Notes under the pieces: generated by a model
What the model saw: the letters and a program-made list of their open reading frames with translations, nothing else
The model's database searches: none
Told to the model about the DNA's origin: nothing
NCBI GenBank assembly: GCA_018715835.1
Contig: DVKV01000153.1
Location: 1 to 45,601 of the forward strand
Source of the DNA: Candidatus Faecousia intestinavium
GTDB taxonomy: Bacteria; Bacillota; Clostridia; Oscillospirales; Oscillospiraceae
Reading direction: 5' to 3'
DNA length: 45,601 nucleotides
Made by a program: the position numbers and the translations under genes
Shown here: positions 5,452 through 15,031 of the stretch, piece by piece
How positions within the stretch are numbered: position 1 is the first letter of the stretch
How the letters are laid out: each line of letters starts with the position of its first letter

Positions 5452-6888
5452 ATGGCAAAAGAAAAGAAGGTCGAGCAGATCACCGATATGGAGGTGGATT
5501 TTGCTCAGTGGTTCACTGATGTGTGCAAAAAAGCCCAGCTGATTGACTATTCGTCCATCAAGGGCGTGTTCATCTACCGGCCCTATGGCTACGCCATCTG
5601 GGAAAATATCCAGAACATCCTGGACAAGGAATTCAAGAAAGTAGGCGTGGAGAACGTCTATATGCCCCTGCTGATTCCCGAAAGCCTGCTGCAGAAGGAG
5701 AAGGACCACATTGAGGGCTTTGCTCCGGAGTGCGCCTGGGTCACCATGGGCGGCAGTGAAGAGCTGGAGGAGCGCTACTGCATCCGTCCCACCTCGGAAA
5801 CCCTGTTCTGCGATCATTTCGCCCAGATCATCCAGTCCCACCGGGATCTGCCCCTGAAGTACAACCAGTGGTGCAGCGTGCTGCGCTGGGAGAAGACCTC
5901 CCGGCCCTTCCTGCGTCACCGGGAGTTCCTGTGGCAGGAAGGCCACACCATGCACGCCACTGCGGAGGAAGCCCAGGACTTCACCCGGCAGATGCTGAAC
6001 ATCTACGCCGACTTCTGTGAAAACGTGCTGGCCATGCCCGTCACCCGGGGCCAGAAGACCGACAAGGAGAAGTTCAACGGCGCCGAGGCCACCTATACCA
6101 TCGAGTGCATGATGCACGACCGGAAGGCCCTCCAGGCCGGCACCTCCCACTATTTCGGTGACGGCTTTGCCCGGGCTTTTGACATCGCCTACACCGACAA
6201 GAACAACCAGAAGGTCACCCCCTTCGAGACCTCCTGGGGCGTGTCCACCCGGCTCATCGGCGGCATTATCATGACCCACGGCGACAACAACGGCCTGATG
6301 CTGCCCCCCAAGGTGGCTCCCATCCAGGTGGTGGTTCTGCCCATCGCCCAGCACAAGCCCGGCGTTCTGGAAGGCGCCAGCGCCCTGCGGGACCGTCTGA
6401 TTCAGGCGGGCTACCGGGTGAAGATGGACGACTCCGACAACTCCATGGGCTGGAAGTGCGCCGAGTACGAAATGAAGGGCGTGCCCCTGCGGGTGGAGTG
6501 CGGCCCCCGGGATCTGGAAAACGGCCAGGTGGTCCTGGTTCGCCGGAACGACGGCGAAAAGACCGTGGTCAAGCTGGAGGAACTGGAGTCTGCCGTTGCC
6601 CAGCAGCTGGAGCTGGTTCACCAGGGAATGTACGACCGGGCCAAGAAGAACCTGGAAGAGCACATCTACGAGGCCCACACCCTGGAAGAGGCCAAGGAAA
6701 TTCAGCAGACCCAGGGCGGTTTCGTCAAGACCATGTGGTGCGGTGACGAGGCCTGCGAGCTGAAGATGAAGGAAGTGGCAGGAATGTCTTCCCGCTGCAT
6801 CCCCTTTGCTCAGGAGCATCTGGGCGATACCTGCCCCTGCTGCGGCAAGCCCGCCAGCAAGATGATCTACTGGGGCGTAGCATACTAA
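5452..6888 (+). CDS. proS: Proline--tRNA ligase, short archaeal/eukaryal-type
   Basis: Class II aaRS motifs ([42 protein letters not shown]). Start ATG 5452 after AGAGAGG. Confidence 0.95.
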
Positions 6889-7651: not shown

Positions 7652-7680
7652 TTGACAAACCGATGCACTTGTGGCAATAT
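7652..7680 (+). promoter_or_regulatory. Putative nrdD promoter, -10 region overlapped by the first NrdR box
   Basis: TTGACA at 7652-7657; 17 bp later CAATAT (7675-7680) inside the NrdR box. Confidence 0.55.
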
Positions 7681-7687
7681 ATTGTGG
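7672..7687 (+). promoter_or_regulatory. NrdR box 1
   Basis: TGGCAATATATTGTGG, matches the NrdR palindrome core. Confidence 0.8.
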
Positions 7688-7703: not shown

Positions 7704-7719
7704 ACACAATATATAGTGT
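7704..7719 (+). promoter_or_regulatory. NrdR box 2
   Basis: ACACAATATATAGTGT, near-perfect NrdR consensus; 32 bp start-to-start from box 1. Confidence 0.9.
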
Positions 7720-7779: not shown

Positions 7780-10062
7780 ATGATTCAGAGCATTATCAAG
7801 CGGGACGGCCGGGTGGTTTTGTACGATCAGAATAAAATCGCCGCCGCCATTCTGCGTTCCATGGAGGCAAGTCACGATGGAAACGCCGCCGACGCCGCCC
7901 GGGTTGCCAACGACGTCCAACGGGATCTGGAGGGCCAGTTCCATAATACATCCCCCAACATCGAAGCCATTCAGGACAGCGTGGAGCGTCAGCTGATGAA
8001 CCATGGCTTCAACGCCGCCGCCAAGGCCTATATTCTCTACCGGGCCAATCGGACCCGGGCCCGGGAGGCCAACACCTCCCTGATGAAGACCATCGATGAA
8101 ATCACCAACATCGATGCCCGGGTCAGCGACATGAAGCGGGACAACGCCAACATCGACGGCAACACTGCCATGGGCGCCATGCTCCAGATCGGGGCCGCCG
8201 GAGCCAAGGCCTACAACGAGATGTACCTGCTCCGCCCGGAGCACGCCAAGGCCTACCGGGAGGGCGACATCCACATCCACGACTTTGACTTCTATTCCCT
8301 GACCACCACCTGCTGCCAGATCGACATCCTCAAACTGTTCCACGGCGGCTTCTCCACCGGTCACGGCTACCTCCGGGAGCCCAACAGCATTCAGAGCTAC
8401 GCCGCTCTGGCCGCCATCGCCATCCAGAGCAACCAGAACGATCAGCACGGCGGCCAGTCCATCCCCAACTTCGATTACGGCATGGCCGAAGGGGTGGCCA
8501 AGACCTACCGCAAGGCCTTCACCCGCCGGCTGAAGGAGGCGGTGGAGGACTATCTGGATCTGCCCGACGAGGATGCCGCCATTCGGGAGCTGATTACCCA
8601 GGCCGAAGAGAGCAGCGGCAAGACTGCCCGTCTGGAAAGCGATCCGGCGTATCTGCAGACCGTTGCGAGTCTGCTTTGCAGCCGCTATGGTCTGGATGCT
8701 TCCAAGGCGGACAAACTGGTAAAGCGGGCCGCTGCCCGGGCTTACGCCAAAACCGACCGGGATACCCAGCAGGCCATGGAGGGCTTCGTCCATAACCTGA
8801 ACACCATGCACTCCCGTGCCGGCGCCCAGACCCCCTTCTCCTCCATCAACTATGGCACCGATACCACTCCCGAAGGCCGGATGGTCATCCGCAACATTCT
8901 GCTGGCGCTGAATGCCGGTCTGGGACACGGGGAGACCTGCATTTTCCCCATCCATATTTTCAAGGTGAAGGAAGGGGTCAACTACAACGAGGGCGACCCC
9001 AACTATGATCTGTTCCGGCTCAGCTGCAAGGTCAGCGCCAAGCGCCTGTTCCCCAACTACACCTTCCTGGACTCCCCTTTCAACCTGCAATACTATGTCC
9101 CCGGTCATCCGGAGACCGAGGTTGCCACCATGGGCTGCCGCACCCGGGTCATGGGCAATGTATACGACCCCACCCGGCAGATCGCCTACTCCCGGGGCAA
9201 CCTGTCCTTCACCTCCATCAACCTGCCCCGGCTGGCCATTGAAAGCCACGGGGACGAGCAGAAGTTCTACCAAGGTCTGGAGGCCATGCTGGAACTGGTG
9301 GCCCAGCAGCTGCTGGACCGGTTCGAAATTCAGGCCAGCAAGCACACCTATAACTTCCCCTTCCTGATGGGACAGGGCGTGTGGCTGGATTCCGACAAGC
9401 TGAGTCTGCAGGATGACCTGCGGGAAGTGCTGAAGCACGGCACCTTGTCCATCGGTTTTATCGGTCTGGCGGAAACCCTCACCGCTCTTTATGGCCATCA
9501 CCATGGAGAGGGTGAGGAGTACGAAAAGAAGGGCCTGGAAATCATCGGCTTCATGCGGGACTTCTGCGATAAGAAATCCCAGGAGATGAAGATGAACTTC
9601 ACCCTTCTGGCCACCCCCGCCGAGGGCCTGTCCGGCCGGTTTATCCGGATGGATCAGAAGCGCTACGGCAAGATCCCCGGCATCACCGACCGGGAGTACT
9701 ACACCAACTCCTTCCACATTCCCGTCTGGTTCCCCATCTCCGTGTACGATAAGATCCGGCTGGAGGCTCCCTACCACGCCCTGTGCAACGCCGGTCACAT
9801 CAGCTATGTGGAGCTGGACGGCGACACCGCCCGGAATGTGGAGGCCTTTGAATCCGTGGTCCGTTGTATGCACGACTTCGGCGTGGGCTACGGCAGCATC
9901 AACCATCCCGTGGACCGGGACCCCATCTGCGGCTATGTGGGCATCATCGGAGACGTATGCCCCCGGTGCGGCCGTCGGGAGGGCGAGCAGATTCCGCCGG
10001 AACGGGTGGACGAGCTGCGAAAGATGTACCCGGAGATGCCTGCTTTCCAGGGCATCCAGTAA
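7780..10062 (+). CDS. nrdD: Anaerobic (class III) ribonucleoside-triphosphate reductase large chain; lacks the terminal glycyl-radical segment
   Basis: N-terminal ATP-cone (MIQSIIKRDGRVVLYDQNKIAAAI), NrdD core, C-terminal CGYVGIIGDVCPRCG zinc-type motif. Ends ...AFQGIQ with no RxxGY motif. Confidence 0.95.
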   Translation: MIQSIIKRDGRVVLYDQNKIAAAILRSMEASHDGNAADAARVANDVQRDLEGQFHNTSPNIEAIQDSVERQLMNHGFNAAAKAYILYRANRTRAREANTSLMKTIDEITNIDARVSDMKRDNANIDGNTAMGAMLQIGAAGAKAYNEMYLLRPEHAKAYREGDIHIHDFDFYSLTTTCCQIDILKLFHGGFSTGHGYLREPNSIQSYAALAAIAIQSNQNDQHGGQSIPNFDYGMAEGVAKTYRKAFTRRLKEAVEDYLDLPDEDAAIRELITQAEESSGKTARLESDPAYLQTVASLLCSRYGLDASKADKLVKRAAARAYAKTDRDTQQAMEGFVHNLNTMHSRAGAQTPFSSINYGTDTTPEGRMVIRNILLALNAGLGHGETCIFPIHIFKVKEGVNYNEGDPNYDLFRLSCKVSAKRLFPNYTFLDSPFNLQYYVPGHPETEVATMGCRTRVMGNVYDPTRQIAYSRGNLSFTSINLPRLAIESHGDEQKFYQGLEAMLELVAQQLLDRFEIQASKHTYNFPFLMGQGVWLDSDKLSLQDDLREVLKHGTLSIGFIGLAETLTALYGHHHGEGEEYEKKGLEIIGFMRDFCDKKSQEMKMNFTLLATPAEGLSGRFIRMDQKRYGKIPGITDREYYTNSFHIPVWFPISVYDKIRLEAPYHALCNAGHISYVELDGDTARNVEAFESVVRCMHDFGVGYGSINHPVDRDPICGYVGIIGDVCPRCGRREGEQIPPERVDELRKMYPEMPAFQGIQ

Positions 10063-10098
10063 CAACCATTTTGTATTTTCTGACAGGAGGTTTTGAAT

Positions 10099-10260
10099 AT
10101 GACTGTGAAATCGAACAGCGAAAAGTTGGGTCAGGGCGTTGGCTTTGAGCGGATCCGCCGGATCACCGGCTACCTGGTGGGCACCATGGACAAATGGAAC
10201 GACGCCAAGCGGGCCGAGGAACGGGACCGGGTCAAGCACAGCATGAACGGCCATGCTTGA
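10099..10260 (+). CDS. 53-aa protein carrying the NrdD-type glycyl-radical motif (absent from supplied ORF track)
   Basis: Translation MTVKSNSEKLGQGVGFERIRRITGYLVGTMDKWNDAKRAEERDRVKHSMNGHA; SD AGGAGG 8 nt upstream; RITGYLV + NDAKRAEERDRVKH matches the NrdD C-terminus. Confidence 0.9.
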   Translation: MTVKSNSEKLGQGVGFERIRRITGYLVGTMDKWNDAKRAEERDRVKHSMNGHA

Positions 10261-10765
10261 TTTAAGCGGCATCGTCAGCGACAGCATTGTGGACGGTCCG
10301 GGCATCCGGCTGTGTGTGTTCAGCCAGGGATGCCCCCACCACTGTCCCGGCTGCCACAACCCGGAGACCTGGGCCTTCGGCTGCGGCACCCCCATGGAGG
10401 AGGAAACTGTGGTGGAAATCGCCCGGTCCAATCCCCTGTGCCGTGGGGTAACCTTCTCCGGCGGGGAACCCTTTGCCCAGGCGGAGGGCTTTGCCCGGCT
10501 GGCAGGGCTCCTGAAGGACGCAGGCTTTGAAGTAGCCTCCTATACCGGTTACACCTTCGAGCAGCTTTTGAAGGGCACACCGGAGCAGCGGCGGCTGCTG
10601 GAGGCCATTGACATTCTCATTGACGGCCCCTTCCTTCTGGAAAAAAAGAGCCTGGAAGTTCCCTTCCGGGGCAGCACCAACCAGCGGATTCTGGACGTTC
10701 CCAAGAGTCTGGCCGCAGGCCGGGCGGTGGAGACCGCCTCCGGGCGCTGGCTGGGAGAATATTGA
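10253..10765 (+). CDS. nrdG: Anaerobic RNR-activating radical SAM protein
   Basis: SIVDGPGIRLCVFSQGCPHHCPGCHNPETW with CxxxCxxC radical-SAM motif; start overlaps the 53-aa ORF by 8 nt. Confidence 0.95.
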   Translation: MLDLSGIVSDSIVDGPGIRLCVFSQGCPHHCPGCHNPETWAFGCGTPMEEETVVEIARSNPLCRGVTFSGGEPFAQAEGFARLAGLLKDAGFEVASYTGYTFEQLLKGTPEQRRLLEAIDILIDGPFLLEKKSLEVPFRGSTNQRILDVPKSLAAGRAVETASGRWLGEY

Positions 10766-10769
10766 CAAA

Positions 10770-10810
10770 ATCCCGTCTGCCATATCTCCGGCGGACGGGA
10801 TATATTTTTA
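10770..10810 (+). terminator. Rho-independent terminator after nrdG
   Basis: ATCCCGTCTGCC / GGCGGACGGGAT followed by an AT-rich T tract. Confidence 0.7.
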
Positions 10811-11018: not shown

Positions 11019-11537
11019 TCAGAATTCGATGCCCTTCCGGGCGGGAATTCCATTGTCAAAGGGATGCTTGCGCTTGCACATCTCCGTCACATAGTCCGCC
11101 GCATCCACAAGGCTGGGCGCCGGATTCCGGCCGGTGAGCACCACTTCCAACCCTTCCGGTTTGGTTTTCAGGAAAGCTTCCACATCTTCCAGCGGAACCA
11201 CACCATTGTTGCAGGCGGAAAGCATCTCATCCAAAACCAGAAGATCCGCTCCGGCGGCTTCCAGCGTCACCTGGCGGAACCACTGGGTATAGTCCCGGCG
11301 GCACTGCTCCTTCTGCTCCGGGGTCATCCGAAAGAAAAATCCCGGCACGGTTTTACAGTGCATCACCCGGATGCCCGGAATCTGCCGGAGCATGGCAATT
11401 TCCGAGGAGCTGCCGTCCTTGAAAAACTGGGTCAGCACCACGTCCTTTCCCGCTCCCGCGGCCCGGAGGGCCAGGCCTACTGCGGCGGTGGTTTTTCCCT
11501 TGCCGTCGCCGCAGTAGATGTGTATCAGCCCCGCCAT
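11019..11537 (-). CDS. cobO: Cob(I)yrinic acid a,c-diamide adenosyltransferase
   Basis: CobA/CobO/BtuR P-loop IHIYCGDGKGKTTAAVGLALRAAGAG; last gene of the B12 cluster. Confidence 0.93.
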   Translation of the reverse strand: MAGLIHIYCGDGKGKTTAAVGLALRAAGAGKDVVLTQFFKDGSSSEIAMLRQIPGIRVMHCKTVPGFFFRMTPEQKEQCRRDYTQWFRQVTLEAAGADLLVLDEMLSACNNGVVPLEDVEAFLKTKPEGLEVVLTGRNPAPSLVDAADYVTEMCKRKHPFDNGIPARKGIEF

Positions 11538-11539
11538 GG

Positions 11540-13003
11540 TCAGACCTCCCGGTTGAGAATCCGGTACACCAGATCCATATCCAGGCCGTCCCGCACCGCC
11601 TGAGCCAGTTTGTCGTACTGCTGCTCTTTATATGCCACGGGGTCGAAGGACTGAAGGCTTCCCGGGTCCACGCCCTTCTCCCGGCACAGCACTTTCACGA
11701 TGGTGTCCGCCACACCGGGGGCGTCAAATATTCCATGGACGTAGCTGCCGTACACATTATCCCGGCAAAGGACCGGATTCTGCCGCTCTCCGCTGCGGCC
11801 CATGTGAATCTCGTAGCCCAGGTAGTCCAGGCCGTTCAGCTCCGCCAGCCGCCCGGGAATATCCCGGAAGGTACCGCTGGTCTGGGTCTGGACTTTTTCT
11901 CCGTGAAACACCGTCTCCACCGGCAGAAGGCTCATTCCGGCAATCTCCGTGACCCCGGCAGCCTCCACCTGATCCGGGTCGGAGACCCGCTGCCCCAGCA
12001 TCTGGTAGCCGCCGCAGACACCGAAGACCAGGGTTCCGGCGCTGGCTGCCTTGAGGATGGCCGCCTCCATGCCGCTTTGCCGCAGCCACATCAGATCGGC
12101 AATGGTGCTCTTGGTACCGGGCAGGAGAATCAGATCCGCTCCCGCCAGTTCCTCGGGAGACTGGACGTAGCGCACCGACACGCTGTCGTAGCGCTCAAAG
12201 GGGGCAAAGTCCGTAAAGTTGGAAATCCGGGGCAGCCGCACCACCGCAATGTCGATGAGCTTCCGGCCCTGAGACCGGTGGAACCGCTCGGACAGACTGT
12301 CCTCGTCGTCAATGTCCACAGTGACGTAGGGTACCACCCCCGCCACCGGGCAGCCGCACAGCTCCTCCAGGGTCTTGAGCCCCGGCTCCAGGATGGCCTT
12401 GTCTCCCCGGAACTTGTTGACAACGGTGCCCTTCACCCGGGCCCGCTCCTCCGGCTCCAGCAGGGCCACCGTGCCGTAGAGCTGGGCAAACACCCCGCCC
12501 CGGTCAATGTCGCCCACCAGCAGCACCGGTGCGTCCACCAGCTTGGCCAGGCCCATGTTCACAATGTCTTCCTGCTTCAGGTTGATTTCCGCCGGGCTTC
12601 CGGCTCCCTCAATGACGATGATGTCATAAGCTTCATCCAGAGCCTTGTACGCCTCCATGACAGCAGGCAGGAACTCCCGCTTGCGCTGATAGTACTCCAT
12701 AGCCTTCATGTTGCCCTGAACCTGACCGTTCACAATCACCTGGCTGCCCACGTCCGTGGTGGGCTTCAGCAAAATGGGATTCATCCGCACATCCGGGGCA
12801 ATTCCGGCAGCCTCCGCCTGAACCACCTGGGCCCGGCCCATCTCCCCGCCATCGGCAGTGATAAAGGAGTTCAGCGCCATATTCTGGCTCTTGAAGGGGG
12901 CCACCCGATAGCCGTCCTGCTTGAAAATCCGGCACAGTCCGGCGCACAGCAGGCTCTTGCCCGCGTTGGACATGGTCCCCTGAATCATAATATTCTTCGC
13001 CAT
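11540..13003 (-). CDS. cbiP: Cobyric acid synthase
   Basis: CobQ/Cbi[48 protein letters not shown]. Start trimmed to 13003. Confidence 0.95.
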
Positions 13004-13005
13004 GG

Positions 13006-14058
13006 TTACTCCTTTCCCAGCACTTCCCGGATGGTCTGAATCAGCACCTGGTTTTCCTCCCGGCGGCGCACCGCCGTACGGTACCATCCCGGGCCCAGGC
13101 CATAATAGTTGTCACAGTTGCGGATGGTGATTTTCCGGGCCTTCAAATCCCGGTGGAGGGTTTCCGGCCCCTGGAACAGCAGATAGTTGGTCTCCGAGGG
13201 GCATACCCAAAAGCCCAGCTGCTCCAGCTGTCGTTTTAGCCAGACCCGTTCTGTCTGAATCAGGCTGCGGGTGGTCTTAAGGAAATCCCCAGCCTCCAGG
13301 GCCGCCACTCCCGCCGCCTGGGCCAGGGAAGACACATTCCAGGGCTGCACCGTGTGGGCCATCCGGGTCAGAAGGGCCTCGTCGGCACACAGGCAGTAGC
13401 CCAGCCGGATGCCTGCCATGCCGTAGCTCTTGGTAAAGGCTTTCAGCAAAAACAGATGGGGATTATCTTCCAGCAGGTCTTTCAGGCTTTCCTCCCGGTC
13501 GGAAAGATCCGCAAAGCATTCATCCACGAACAGCCGGATCTGGTGTTCCCTGCAGAAAACCAGGACTTTTTCCAGCAGCTGCCGGGGAATGGTCTTTCCG
13601 GTGGGATTGTTGGGGTTGCACAGGAACACTGCGTCAGGCTGAACCTTTCCTACAAAGTCCAGGAAGCCTTCCTCCAGGGAAAATTCCGTCTCCCGGGACA
13701 GACTGTAACGCTCCATCCGTCCGCCCATCCGGGTCAGACCCAGCGCGTACTCGGAGAAGGTGGGGGCCAGCTCCACCCCCAGGCGGATATTTGCCGCCTC
13801 GCAGTAGGAGTAAATCAGCTCCGCCGCCCCGTTGCCGCAGAGAATCCGCTCCGGGGCGACTCCTTCAAAACGGGAGATGGCCTGCACCAGTCGGCGGCAG
13901 TAGGGGTCCGGATAGCGATCCATCTGTTCCAGGCTGTCCCGCACCGCCTGGCGCACCGCCTCCGGGGTACCCAGAGGGTTGGTATTGGCGGAAAAGTCCA
14001 GCAGCACTTCCCTGCCGTAAATATCCCCGCCATGGGGGTTGTTTGTCTGATAGAGCAT
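13006..14058 (-). CDS. cobD: Threonine-phosphate decarboxylase-like PLP aminotransferase (CobD type)
   Basis: Class I/II aminotransferase fold ([47 protein letters not shown]) within the cobalamin operon. Confidence 0.9.
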
Positions 14059-14062
14059 CGTT

Positions 14063-15031
14063 TCACCAACCAATCACAAACAGCAGTTTTACAGCCGCGC
14101 ACAGCACCAGTGCCAGCGCCGCACTGGCATAGAGCAGCTTGCAGGCCAGAGGAATGTCATCCACCCCAATTTCCCGCACCGGATCACCGATGTAGGGCTT
14201 CTTGTGAAGCACGCCATGGTACCAGGCGTCTCCCGCCAGCCGCAGCCCCAGAAGTCCGGCGCACACCGACTCGGTCTGGGCAGAGTTGGGACTGGCGTGG
14301 TTGAACCGGTCCCGGCGGAAAATCCGCCAGCCGTTTCCGGCATCCAGGCCCAGCAAGCCCCCCGCCGCCAGCATCACCAGGGCGGACAGCCGGGCGGGCA
14401 GGAAATTGAACACATCGTCCATTTTGGCGCTGACCAGCCCGATGTCTTTATAGGGCGGCTCCACATAACCCAGCATGGAGTCCATGGTATTCACCGCCTT
14501 GTAGAAAAAGCCCAGAGGGGCGCCGCCGATGGCCAGGAACACCAGGGGCGCAATGATGCCGTCAGAGGTGTTCTCCGCCACGGTCTCCACCGCCGCCCGG
14601 GTTACCCCGTCCCGGTCCAATCGGGCCACATCCCGGCCCACAATCATGGACACCGCATACCGGGCATCCTCCAGGGTGCCGGTTTTCAGGGCGGTATAGA
14701 CCTTCATGCTTTCGGTTTTCAGGGATTTGGTGGCCAGAATCTGGGCGCAGAACACCGTCTCCACCGCCAGTCCCAGCCAGGGGGTCAGGCGGTAGCACAG
14801 CCAGAGGATGCCCCCCGGCACCGCCGTGGAAACACTTACCACAATCAGCCACAGCACGCCCCCGGCAATATTCTCCCCCAGCACTGTTTTGGGAAAAATC
14901 CGGCGCACCAGCTTCTCCACCCCACTGATCAACTTTCCAATGAGCACCACCGGATGAGGAATGCCGTGGGGGTCTCCCACAATCAGATCCAGGCAGAAGC
15001 CCAGAACCAGGGCAATCAGCGACCACATCAT
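14063..15031 (-). CDS. cbiB: Adenosylcobinamide-phosphate synthase
   Basis: CbiB: LDLIVGDPHGIPHPVVLIGKLIS; AENTSDGIIAPL; FNHASPNSAQTE. Confidence 0.95.
   Translation of the reverse strand: MMWSLIALVLGFCLDLIVGDPHGIPHPVVLIGKLISGVEKLVRRIFPKTVLGENIAGGVLWLIVVSVSTAVPGGILWLCYRLTPWLGLAVETVFCAQILATKSLKTESMKVYTALKTGTLEDARYAVSMIVGRDVARLDRDGVTRAAVETVAENTSDGIIAPLVFLAIGGAPLGFFYKAVNTMDSMLGYVEPPYKDIGLVSAKMDDVFNFLPARLSALVMLAAGGLLGLDAGNGWRIFRRDRFNHASPNSAQTESVCAGLLGLRLAGDAWYHGVLHKKPYIGDPVREIGVDDIPLACKLLYASAALALVLCAAVKLLFVIGW

Follow-up and report, generated by a model that had tools for sequence, protein, structure and literature searches.

In current descriptions of class III ribonucleotide reductase (RNR), the NrdD catalytic chain itself ends in the glycyl radical domain (PMC9669993, PMC12662201), and the radical glycine has been structurally established as Gly711 in Prevotella copri NrdD (PMC11226230). 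In a stretch of 45,601 nucleotides from a draft genome of Candidatus Faecousia intestinavium (hereafter, the window), the NrdD chain ends without an RxxGY motif, which raises the question of where its radical glycine is encoded. A preliminary description of the locus had claimed that the motif lies on a separate 53-aa ORF between nrdD and nrdG and that this small protein gives the radical glycine in trans. The first claim held. The second was supported by the conservation of 97 split pairs, selection, genomes with no other RNR, the alignment to Gly711, and phage copies, and is by far the best reading; we consider it very likely (probability about 0.9) that the locus encodes a two-subunit class III RNR. 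This reading is inferred from sequence alone, without protein or activity data, and docking, the radical on the glycine, and catalysis are inferences.

Organization of the nrdD operon

All features described here lie on the forward strand. Profile and fold matches identified nrdD (7780..10062) as the gene for a class III RNR catalytic subunit with an ATP-cone, a barrel, and a Zn ribbon, and without the glycyl-radical loop. The expected thiyl-radical cysteine, Cys453 (codon 9136..9138), lies in the MGCR finger loop, was invariant in two alignments, and corresponds to Cys416 of P. copri NrdD. The Zn-ribbon cysteines C717, C727, and C730 (CGYVGIIGDVCPRC; 9928..9969), also invariant in alignments, remain on the NrdD chain and are followed by a C-terminal tail (9976..10059), which a comparison of split and fused tails showed to be specific to split NrdDs. 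A role of this tail in docking is an inference.

The stop codon of nrdD (TAA, 10060-10062) is separated by 36 nt from the ORF for the 53-aa protein (10099..10260), which was recognized as a stand-alone glycyl-radical-domain subunit by profile matches, conservation, and structure alignment. Its predicted radical glycine, Gly24 in RITGYLV (codon 10168..10170), corresponds to Gly711 of P. copri NrdD. A second in-frame stop (TGA, 10081-10083) and a Shine-Dalgarno sequence serving the small ORF, AGGAGG (10085..10090, read from the sequence), lie in the gap. The start of nrdG (10253..10765) overlaps the small ORF by 8 nt; the product is a radical-SAM activase with CPHHCPGC, that is, CX3CX2C, and scored 134 bits with TIGR02491 (cut-off 126.1). 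On re-reading, the preliminary coordinates of NrdD, the stops, AGGAGG, the 53-aa ORF, the gap, and the nrdG overlap all held.

Upstream of nrdD, a pattern scan found an NrdR-box-like palindrome (ACACAATATATAGTGT; 7704..7719) matching an NrdR-box consensus without mismatch; 0.41 chance matches were expected in the whole window at up to 3 mismatches. A weaker second AT palindrome (CAATATATTG; 7675-7684), read by eye, lies 32 bp further upstream, centre to centre. Directly 3' of nrdG is an intrinsic-terminator-like hairpin (10770..10801; 12 pairs, 8 GC), which possibly closes the nrdD-small ORF-nrdG operon, although this simple consensus scan is suggestive at most.

Position of the cut in the class III RNR chain

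The two proteins matched complementary parts of the same family model. PF13597 (NRDD) covered NrdD at model positions 1-531 of 562 (602.8 bits) and the 53-aa protein at positions 533-562 (E 1.4e-8); therefore, the pair corresponds to one class III RNR cut once, between the Zn ribbon and the radical loop. NrdD was also matched by NF005497 (1059 bits). In NCBIfam, the matches of the small protein were confined to the final 32 to 35 positions of NrdD models, such as positions 586-617 of 618 in NF011292 (E 3e-15), and these matches place the separation of NrdD from its RxxGY motif far beyond chance. NrdD thus terminates just past the Zn ribbon, and the small protein carries the missing last ~30 residues. 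When the latter was aligned to P. copri NrdD (8p23), it fell on chain positions 707-738, with Gly24 on position 715 (Gly711 in the published numbering); in 8p23 numbering, the cut lies between the end of the Zn-ribbon match (704) and the start of the loop match (707-708).

Fold searches with NrdD matched P. copri NrdD (8p2s/8p23) and T4 NrdD, which confirms a class III RNR and no more. According to the alignments, the split NrdD retains Cys178, Cys453, the N122xN124 flap, and the Zn cysteines, the first of the four canonical Zn cysteines being Asp both here and in fused relatives. It thus shows the barrel, the finger-loop cysteine, the second catalytic cysteine, and the NxN flap of class III enzymes, together with Zn-binding cysteines ahead of the radical loop and a dedicated NrdG with CX3CX2C above the curated TIGR02491 cut-off. 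The one class III feature that failed was a radical motif on the same polypeptide.

Conservation of the split

Among the loci collected, we found 97 distinct pairs of split nrdD and small ORF, which are not independent events. The small proteins were 44-75 residues long. The spacer between the nrdD stop and the small-ORF start ranged from 0 to 411 nt, and the three frame relations occurred 38, 37, and 22 times, so that the small ORF was out of frame in 59 of the 97 pairs. A Shine-Dalgarno match of at least 4 nt preceded 99% of the small ORFs and 12% of control ATGs; with at least 5 nt, these values were 72% and 3%, respectively.

Across 96 pairs from all clades, approximately 21 of 38 core columns of the small protein, counted by eye from the alignment output, were fully invariant, and 27 of 38 were conserved at 95% or more. 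The invariant residues included all of RIRRITGYLVGT, and RITGY(L)VG was present in every one of the 96 proteins. A conserved start, G[EQK]G[VI]xF, precedes FERIRRITGY. On the large chain, the tail [RHK]xGEx[VI][PS]xE[KR][LIV] was common to most split NrdDs of all clades and absent from fused NrdDs. In a genus-like set (234 pairs), the median dN/dS was 0.007 at a pS of 0.51; the split is thus under very strong purifying selection.

Conservation in related genomes, proposed earlier as a check, was examined at several ranks. The genus sample contained 15 further genomes with a full-length or near-full-length NrdD of the split type (82-95% identity) and one more with partial copies, and every genus genome with a readable downstream region was split identically. 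The split form was present in many families of the order, including named genomes such as Massiliimalia timonensis, Gemmiger sp. An87, and Oscillospiraceae bacterium MH27-2, and extended to Bacilli and to one MAG labelled Campylobacterota. The tally for the order comprised at least 128 genomes: at least 60 with the short split ORF, 43 with a fused NrdD, 16 with a fused NrdD plus an extra domain of ~95 aa, and 9 with only the ~95-aa ORF. Among these 128, none had both the short split ORF and a fused NrdD of the RITGY type. The tally and the surveys of the order and the class covered best matches only. A quick maximum-likelihood tree built from 84 NrdD cores required 7 switches between the split and the fused form, at least 3 of them forced by starred branches; therefore, the split arose or reverted more than once, or was transferred.

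These data bear on two rival explanations. The first regards the locus as an ordinary one-chain nrdD that has been misassembled or frameshifted or is decaying as a pseudogene. In its favour, sister families have the fused gene, and a second NrdD in the genome (see below) could make the copy in the window dispensable. Against it, 97 distinct pairs, drawn from many independent assemblies and varying in spacer and frame, show the identical split, dN/dS is about 0.007, and the split pair is the sole recognizable RNR in several near-complete genomes. We regard this explanation as all but ruled out. Fused relatives, which had been named as a refuting observation, occur as a conserved sister architecture and not as evidence of decay or misassembly.

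The second explanation is that the two ORFs yield a single chain after all, through read-through of the stop, frameshifting, fusion linked to reinitiation, or splicing. The ORFs do share a frame in the window, as they do in 38 of the 97 pairs. Against this stand the 59 out-of-frame pairs, the spacers of up to 411 nt, and the dedicated Shine-Dalgarno sites; moreover, no RNA structure was found in the spacer between nrdD and the small ORF (z 0.13). In phages, the small ORF lies upstream of nrdD (L306, L332) or ~0.75-1.3 kb downstream of it (L314, L316, L317), and a fused product is therefore excluded as a general case. We see almost no room left for this explanation.

The split pair as the sole recognizable RNR in several genomes

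In six genomes, the split pair was the only NrdD, and no class I/II catalytic subunit (PF02867) was present: G300 (100% complete), G138 (99%), G325 (99%), G039 (98%), G051 (95%), and G445 (91%). Likewise, in Massiliimalia timonensis Marseille-P3753 the pair was the sole recognizable RNR, with no other NrdD and no class I/II enzyme found. Completeness values are estimates, and a gene may be missed in any one draft, but less plausibly in all seven. Since cells need an RNR and only the split NrdD is present, the small protein must serve NrdD in those genomes.

The genome of the window itself (82% complete) differs. Another of its contigs (C91) encodes a second NrdD, complete at 706 aa, of the RTCGY subtype and ending ...VARRTCGYIGTQ..., and no match to PF02867 was found in this draft. 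Because of this complete NrdD, the split enzyme is possibly an accessory one in its own genome. The preliminary statement that the small protein would be the only radical domain thus held for this NrdD and failed for the genome. A further NrdD that itself carries RxxGY had also been named as refuting the reading; such an NrdD is present, yet it does not refute the reading, because relatives exist without any other RNR.

A third rival explanation is that the small protein is merely a repair or accessory piece, and that NrdD uses another radical source or the radical domain of another glycyl radical enzyme. This is supported by the precedent of YfiD, the spare part of pyruvate formate-lyase (PFL; PMC8683613), and by the ~95-aa NrdD-type spare part found beside complete NrdDs. 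On the other hand, the split NrdD itself lacks a radical domain, which leaves nothing to repair; Massiliimalia timonensis and several near-complete genomes yielded neither another NrdD nor a class I/II RNR; and RITGY(L)VG is invariant across 96 pairs. We therefore consider this explanation very improbable.

Phage copies and related architectures

The ~50-aa radical domain also occurs in temperate phages, with no nrdD nearby. Among the best 80 IMG/VR hits, 57 had the small ORF and no recognizable nrdD in the fetched stretch, as judged by a motif search of up to 5 kb on each side of the small ORF. PHROGs assigned integrase, tail, endolysin, or terminase proteins to the neighbours on the four contigs scanned (L213, L224, L247, L279). 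Other phages have nrdDs that are themselves split, in the displaced arrangements described above; Eggerthella phage EL753P1 is also among the phages with a split nrdD. Separately, tblastn matches in 'Bacteriophage sp.' MT83xxxx records were considered as tiny phages and rejected: the sole record read fully (L063) contained a fused NrdD and ordinary bacterial genes, and these records were left out of the phage evidence.

Two other architectures were observed in bacteria. At two loci (L198, L199), a fused nrdD is followed by an ORF of ~95 aa, which has the same radical loop and is extended at the N-terminus, and then by nrdG; similar ~95-aa ORFs, unlinked, accompany fused NrdDs at five further loci (L205-L209). 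Judging from these sequences, the ~95-aa ORF of other Clostridia is likely to be a spare part for a complete NrdD. Furthermore, a tandem pair of small ORFs was found inside one split operon (L201, G148).

Proposed two-subunit mechanism

What has been demonstrated is the anatomy, the conservation, the selection, the separate translation signals, and the existence of genomes with the pair as their only recognizable RNR; the following steps are inferred. NrdD would contribute the barrel that holds the substrate site, Cys453 as the thiyl-forming residue, the NxN flap, the Zn ribbon, and the ATP-cone. The glycyl-radical loop, detached as the 53-aa protein, would dock onto the end of NrdD so that Gly24 reaches Cys453. 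The docking surfaces are presumed to be the NrdD tail and the G[EQK]G[VI]xF start of the small protein, with Gly24 entering the barrel opposite Cys453. NrdG, translated from its overlapping start, would generate the radical at Gly24 before or after the small protein has joined NrdD, and the radical would then move from Gly24 to Cys453 as in one-chain enzymes. In the latter, the radical domain swings out to reach NrdG (PMC12662201); the small subunit could instead simply dissociate to meet it.

The modelling of the complex proposed earlier was approximated by AlphaFold2 prediction of a read-through pseudo-chain. With 56 alignment rows, the pTM was 0.84, the linker was disordered, and the small domain reached only moderate confidence, with pLDDT block means of 65-82; with 33 rows, NrdD was predicted well and the glycine loop had a pLDDT of 43-57. 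An alignment with small-only rows misplaced those rows and was discarded. The prediction was biased by the read-through linker and by fused relatives in the alignment, and no Gly-Cys distance was obtained. The model is thus compatible with the docking idea but does not place the glycine decisively and is not a test of it.

Discussion

The split system resembles one-chain class III RNRs (P. copri NrdD, 8p23; phage T4 NrdD, 1H7A) in its barrel, ATP-cone, MGCR finger loop, NxN flap, Zn ribbon, NrdG partner, NrdR-type box, and radical loop RITGYLVGT. Unlike them, it has the radical loop on a protein of ~50 aa with its own start, and NrdD has a new conserved tail past the Zn ribbon. The PFL spare parts YfiD/GrcA and T4 Y06I (PMC8683613) are likewise small free-standing radical domains of bacteria and phages, and the 53-aa protein would similarly complement in trans. 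However, it is of the NrdD type and not of the PFL type: its Pfam and NCBIfam matches were to NrdD families only, so that it lacks the YfiD/GrcA trait of a domain resembling the PFL C-terminus. Its large partner also lacks a radical domain, so that the small protein would be obligatory. It therefore fails the YfiD/GrcA trait of being a spare beside a complete parent, a trait that the ~95-aa ORFs beside fused NrdD (L198, L199) do meet.

Other RNRs in pieces are known. NrdJa and NrdJb of Pseudomonas aeruginosa are two operon-encoded subunits with a small C-terminal part separate, both of which are required in vivo (PMC4520616), and Crona et al. (2015) described NrdJab as the only split RNR in a non-viral organism (PMC4520616). 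In contrast to the present pair, NrdJab belongs to class II (B12), and NrdJb has 229 aa and serves thiol exchange, not the radical; the split NrdD is class III by profile and not a B12-dependent catalytic subunit of class II. Phage RNR genes, nrdD included, also occur in pieces (Aeh1 nrdA-a/nrdA-b; phiAS4 nrdD fragments), and these have been attributed to introns, inteins, homing endonucleases, or unexplained fragmentation (PMC3653736). Here, by contrast, every cut falls at one and the same domain border, conserved in many families and without an insert.

Taken together, these comparisons point to a new form of class III RNR, as inferred from sequence alone, in which one defining feature, the glycine on the same chain, is failed and which resembles the YfiD pair functionally while standing outside that family. 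We found no description of a split class III RNR or of a split NrdD radical domain in the open-access literature searched; subscription journals and most preprints were outside this scope, and a prior report is possible. As to its origin, NrdD may conceivably have lost its domain after a spare-part stage in which a complete NrdD coexisted with an extra domain. A bolder reading, which could as well prove wrong as right, is that many gut Clostridia have an obligate two-component class III RNR in which an inexpensive, exchangeable subunit of ~6 kDa serves as the oxygen-sensitive radical cofactor, that an oxygen-cleaved domain would be replaced without losing the 85 kDa chain, and that temperate phages would carry the subunit to activate or take over the host NrdD.

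For annotation, a functional nrdD can look truncated through gene callers, and a frequent phage gene of evident purpose is called hypothetical or possibly missed. Spare-part proteins for glycyl radical enzymes other than PFL have been a matter of speculation only (Andorfer et al., PMC8683613), and this published question is answered, at least by sequence. If the two-subunit reading is confirmed, the 6 kDa protein would allow NrdG activation, radical transfer, and oxygen damage to be studied in isolation, and an essential enzyme of many gut anaerobes would run with a detachable radical subunit.

Small radical-domain ORFs within and outside the split operon

The small open reading frame (ORF) encoding a stand-alone NrdD-type glycyl-radical domain was also found in additional copies. 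In genome G148, one split nrdD and nrdG enclosed two tandem small ORFs (L201:2941-3553). Genomes having the split operon also carried extra copies at L200:3485-3631, L202:3133-3318, L203:2989-3153, and L204:3036-3416, in surroundings that were judged by eye to be prophage-like on the basis of tail-like proteins, DNA methyltransferase, and SSB.

Cobalamin-pathway-like genes (11019-14073, minus strand), resembling those for cob(I)alamin adenosyltransferase, cobyric acid synthase, and threonine-phosphate decarboxylase as named by eye, adjoined the nrd operon of the window. A PF02867 search of the window's genome did not find the catalytic subunit of a B12-dependent class II ribonucleotide reductase (RNR).

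Occurrence on viral contigs and in phages

Class III radical-domain ORFs of 45-60 aa were frequent on IMG/VR viral contigs with no nrdD nearby (L210-L289). In the contigs whose neighbouring genes were scanned (L213, L224, L247, and L279), the small ORF lay close to integrase, tail, endolysin, or terminase genes, a position that can be described as moron-like. In the phage loci L306 and L332, the small ORF was located upstream, not downstream, of nrdD.

In Eggerthella phage EL753P1 (L062, OP172808.1 1039-13169; match at 6001-6131), the nrdD had no radical motif at its end and was interrupted at the position of the active-site cysteine by an insert resembling an intein. The downstream small ORF was broken at RRI/TGY by an apparent 5-nt insertion, which could be a sequencing error, a real mutation, or a frameshift site. 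Another record, L063 (MT837933.1), is labelled "Bacteriophage sp." and reads as a bacterial chromosome fragment, in which the neighbours of a fused nrdD encode a C_GCAxxG-like protein and one resembling short-chain dehydrogenases.

Radical-domain proteins accompanying complete NrdD

Stand-alone NrdD-type radical-domain proteins of approximately 95 aa, with the sequence pattern M.I.V.GGE...IDGD.VD..YTF..VPFERIRRITGYLVGT..., accompanied complete NrdD. Their ORFs were flanked by complete fused nrdD and nrdG in two loci (L198:4166-4447 and L199:4776-5063, both in minus orientation) and were located elsewhere in genomes having fused NrdD in five others (L205-L209). The approximately 95-aa protein is a candidate class III RNR spare part.
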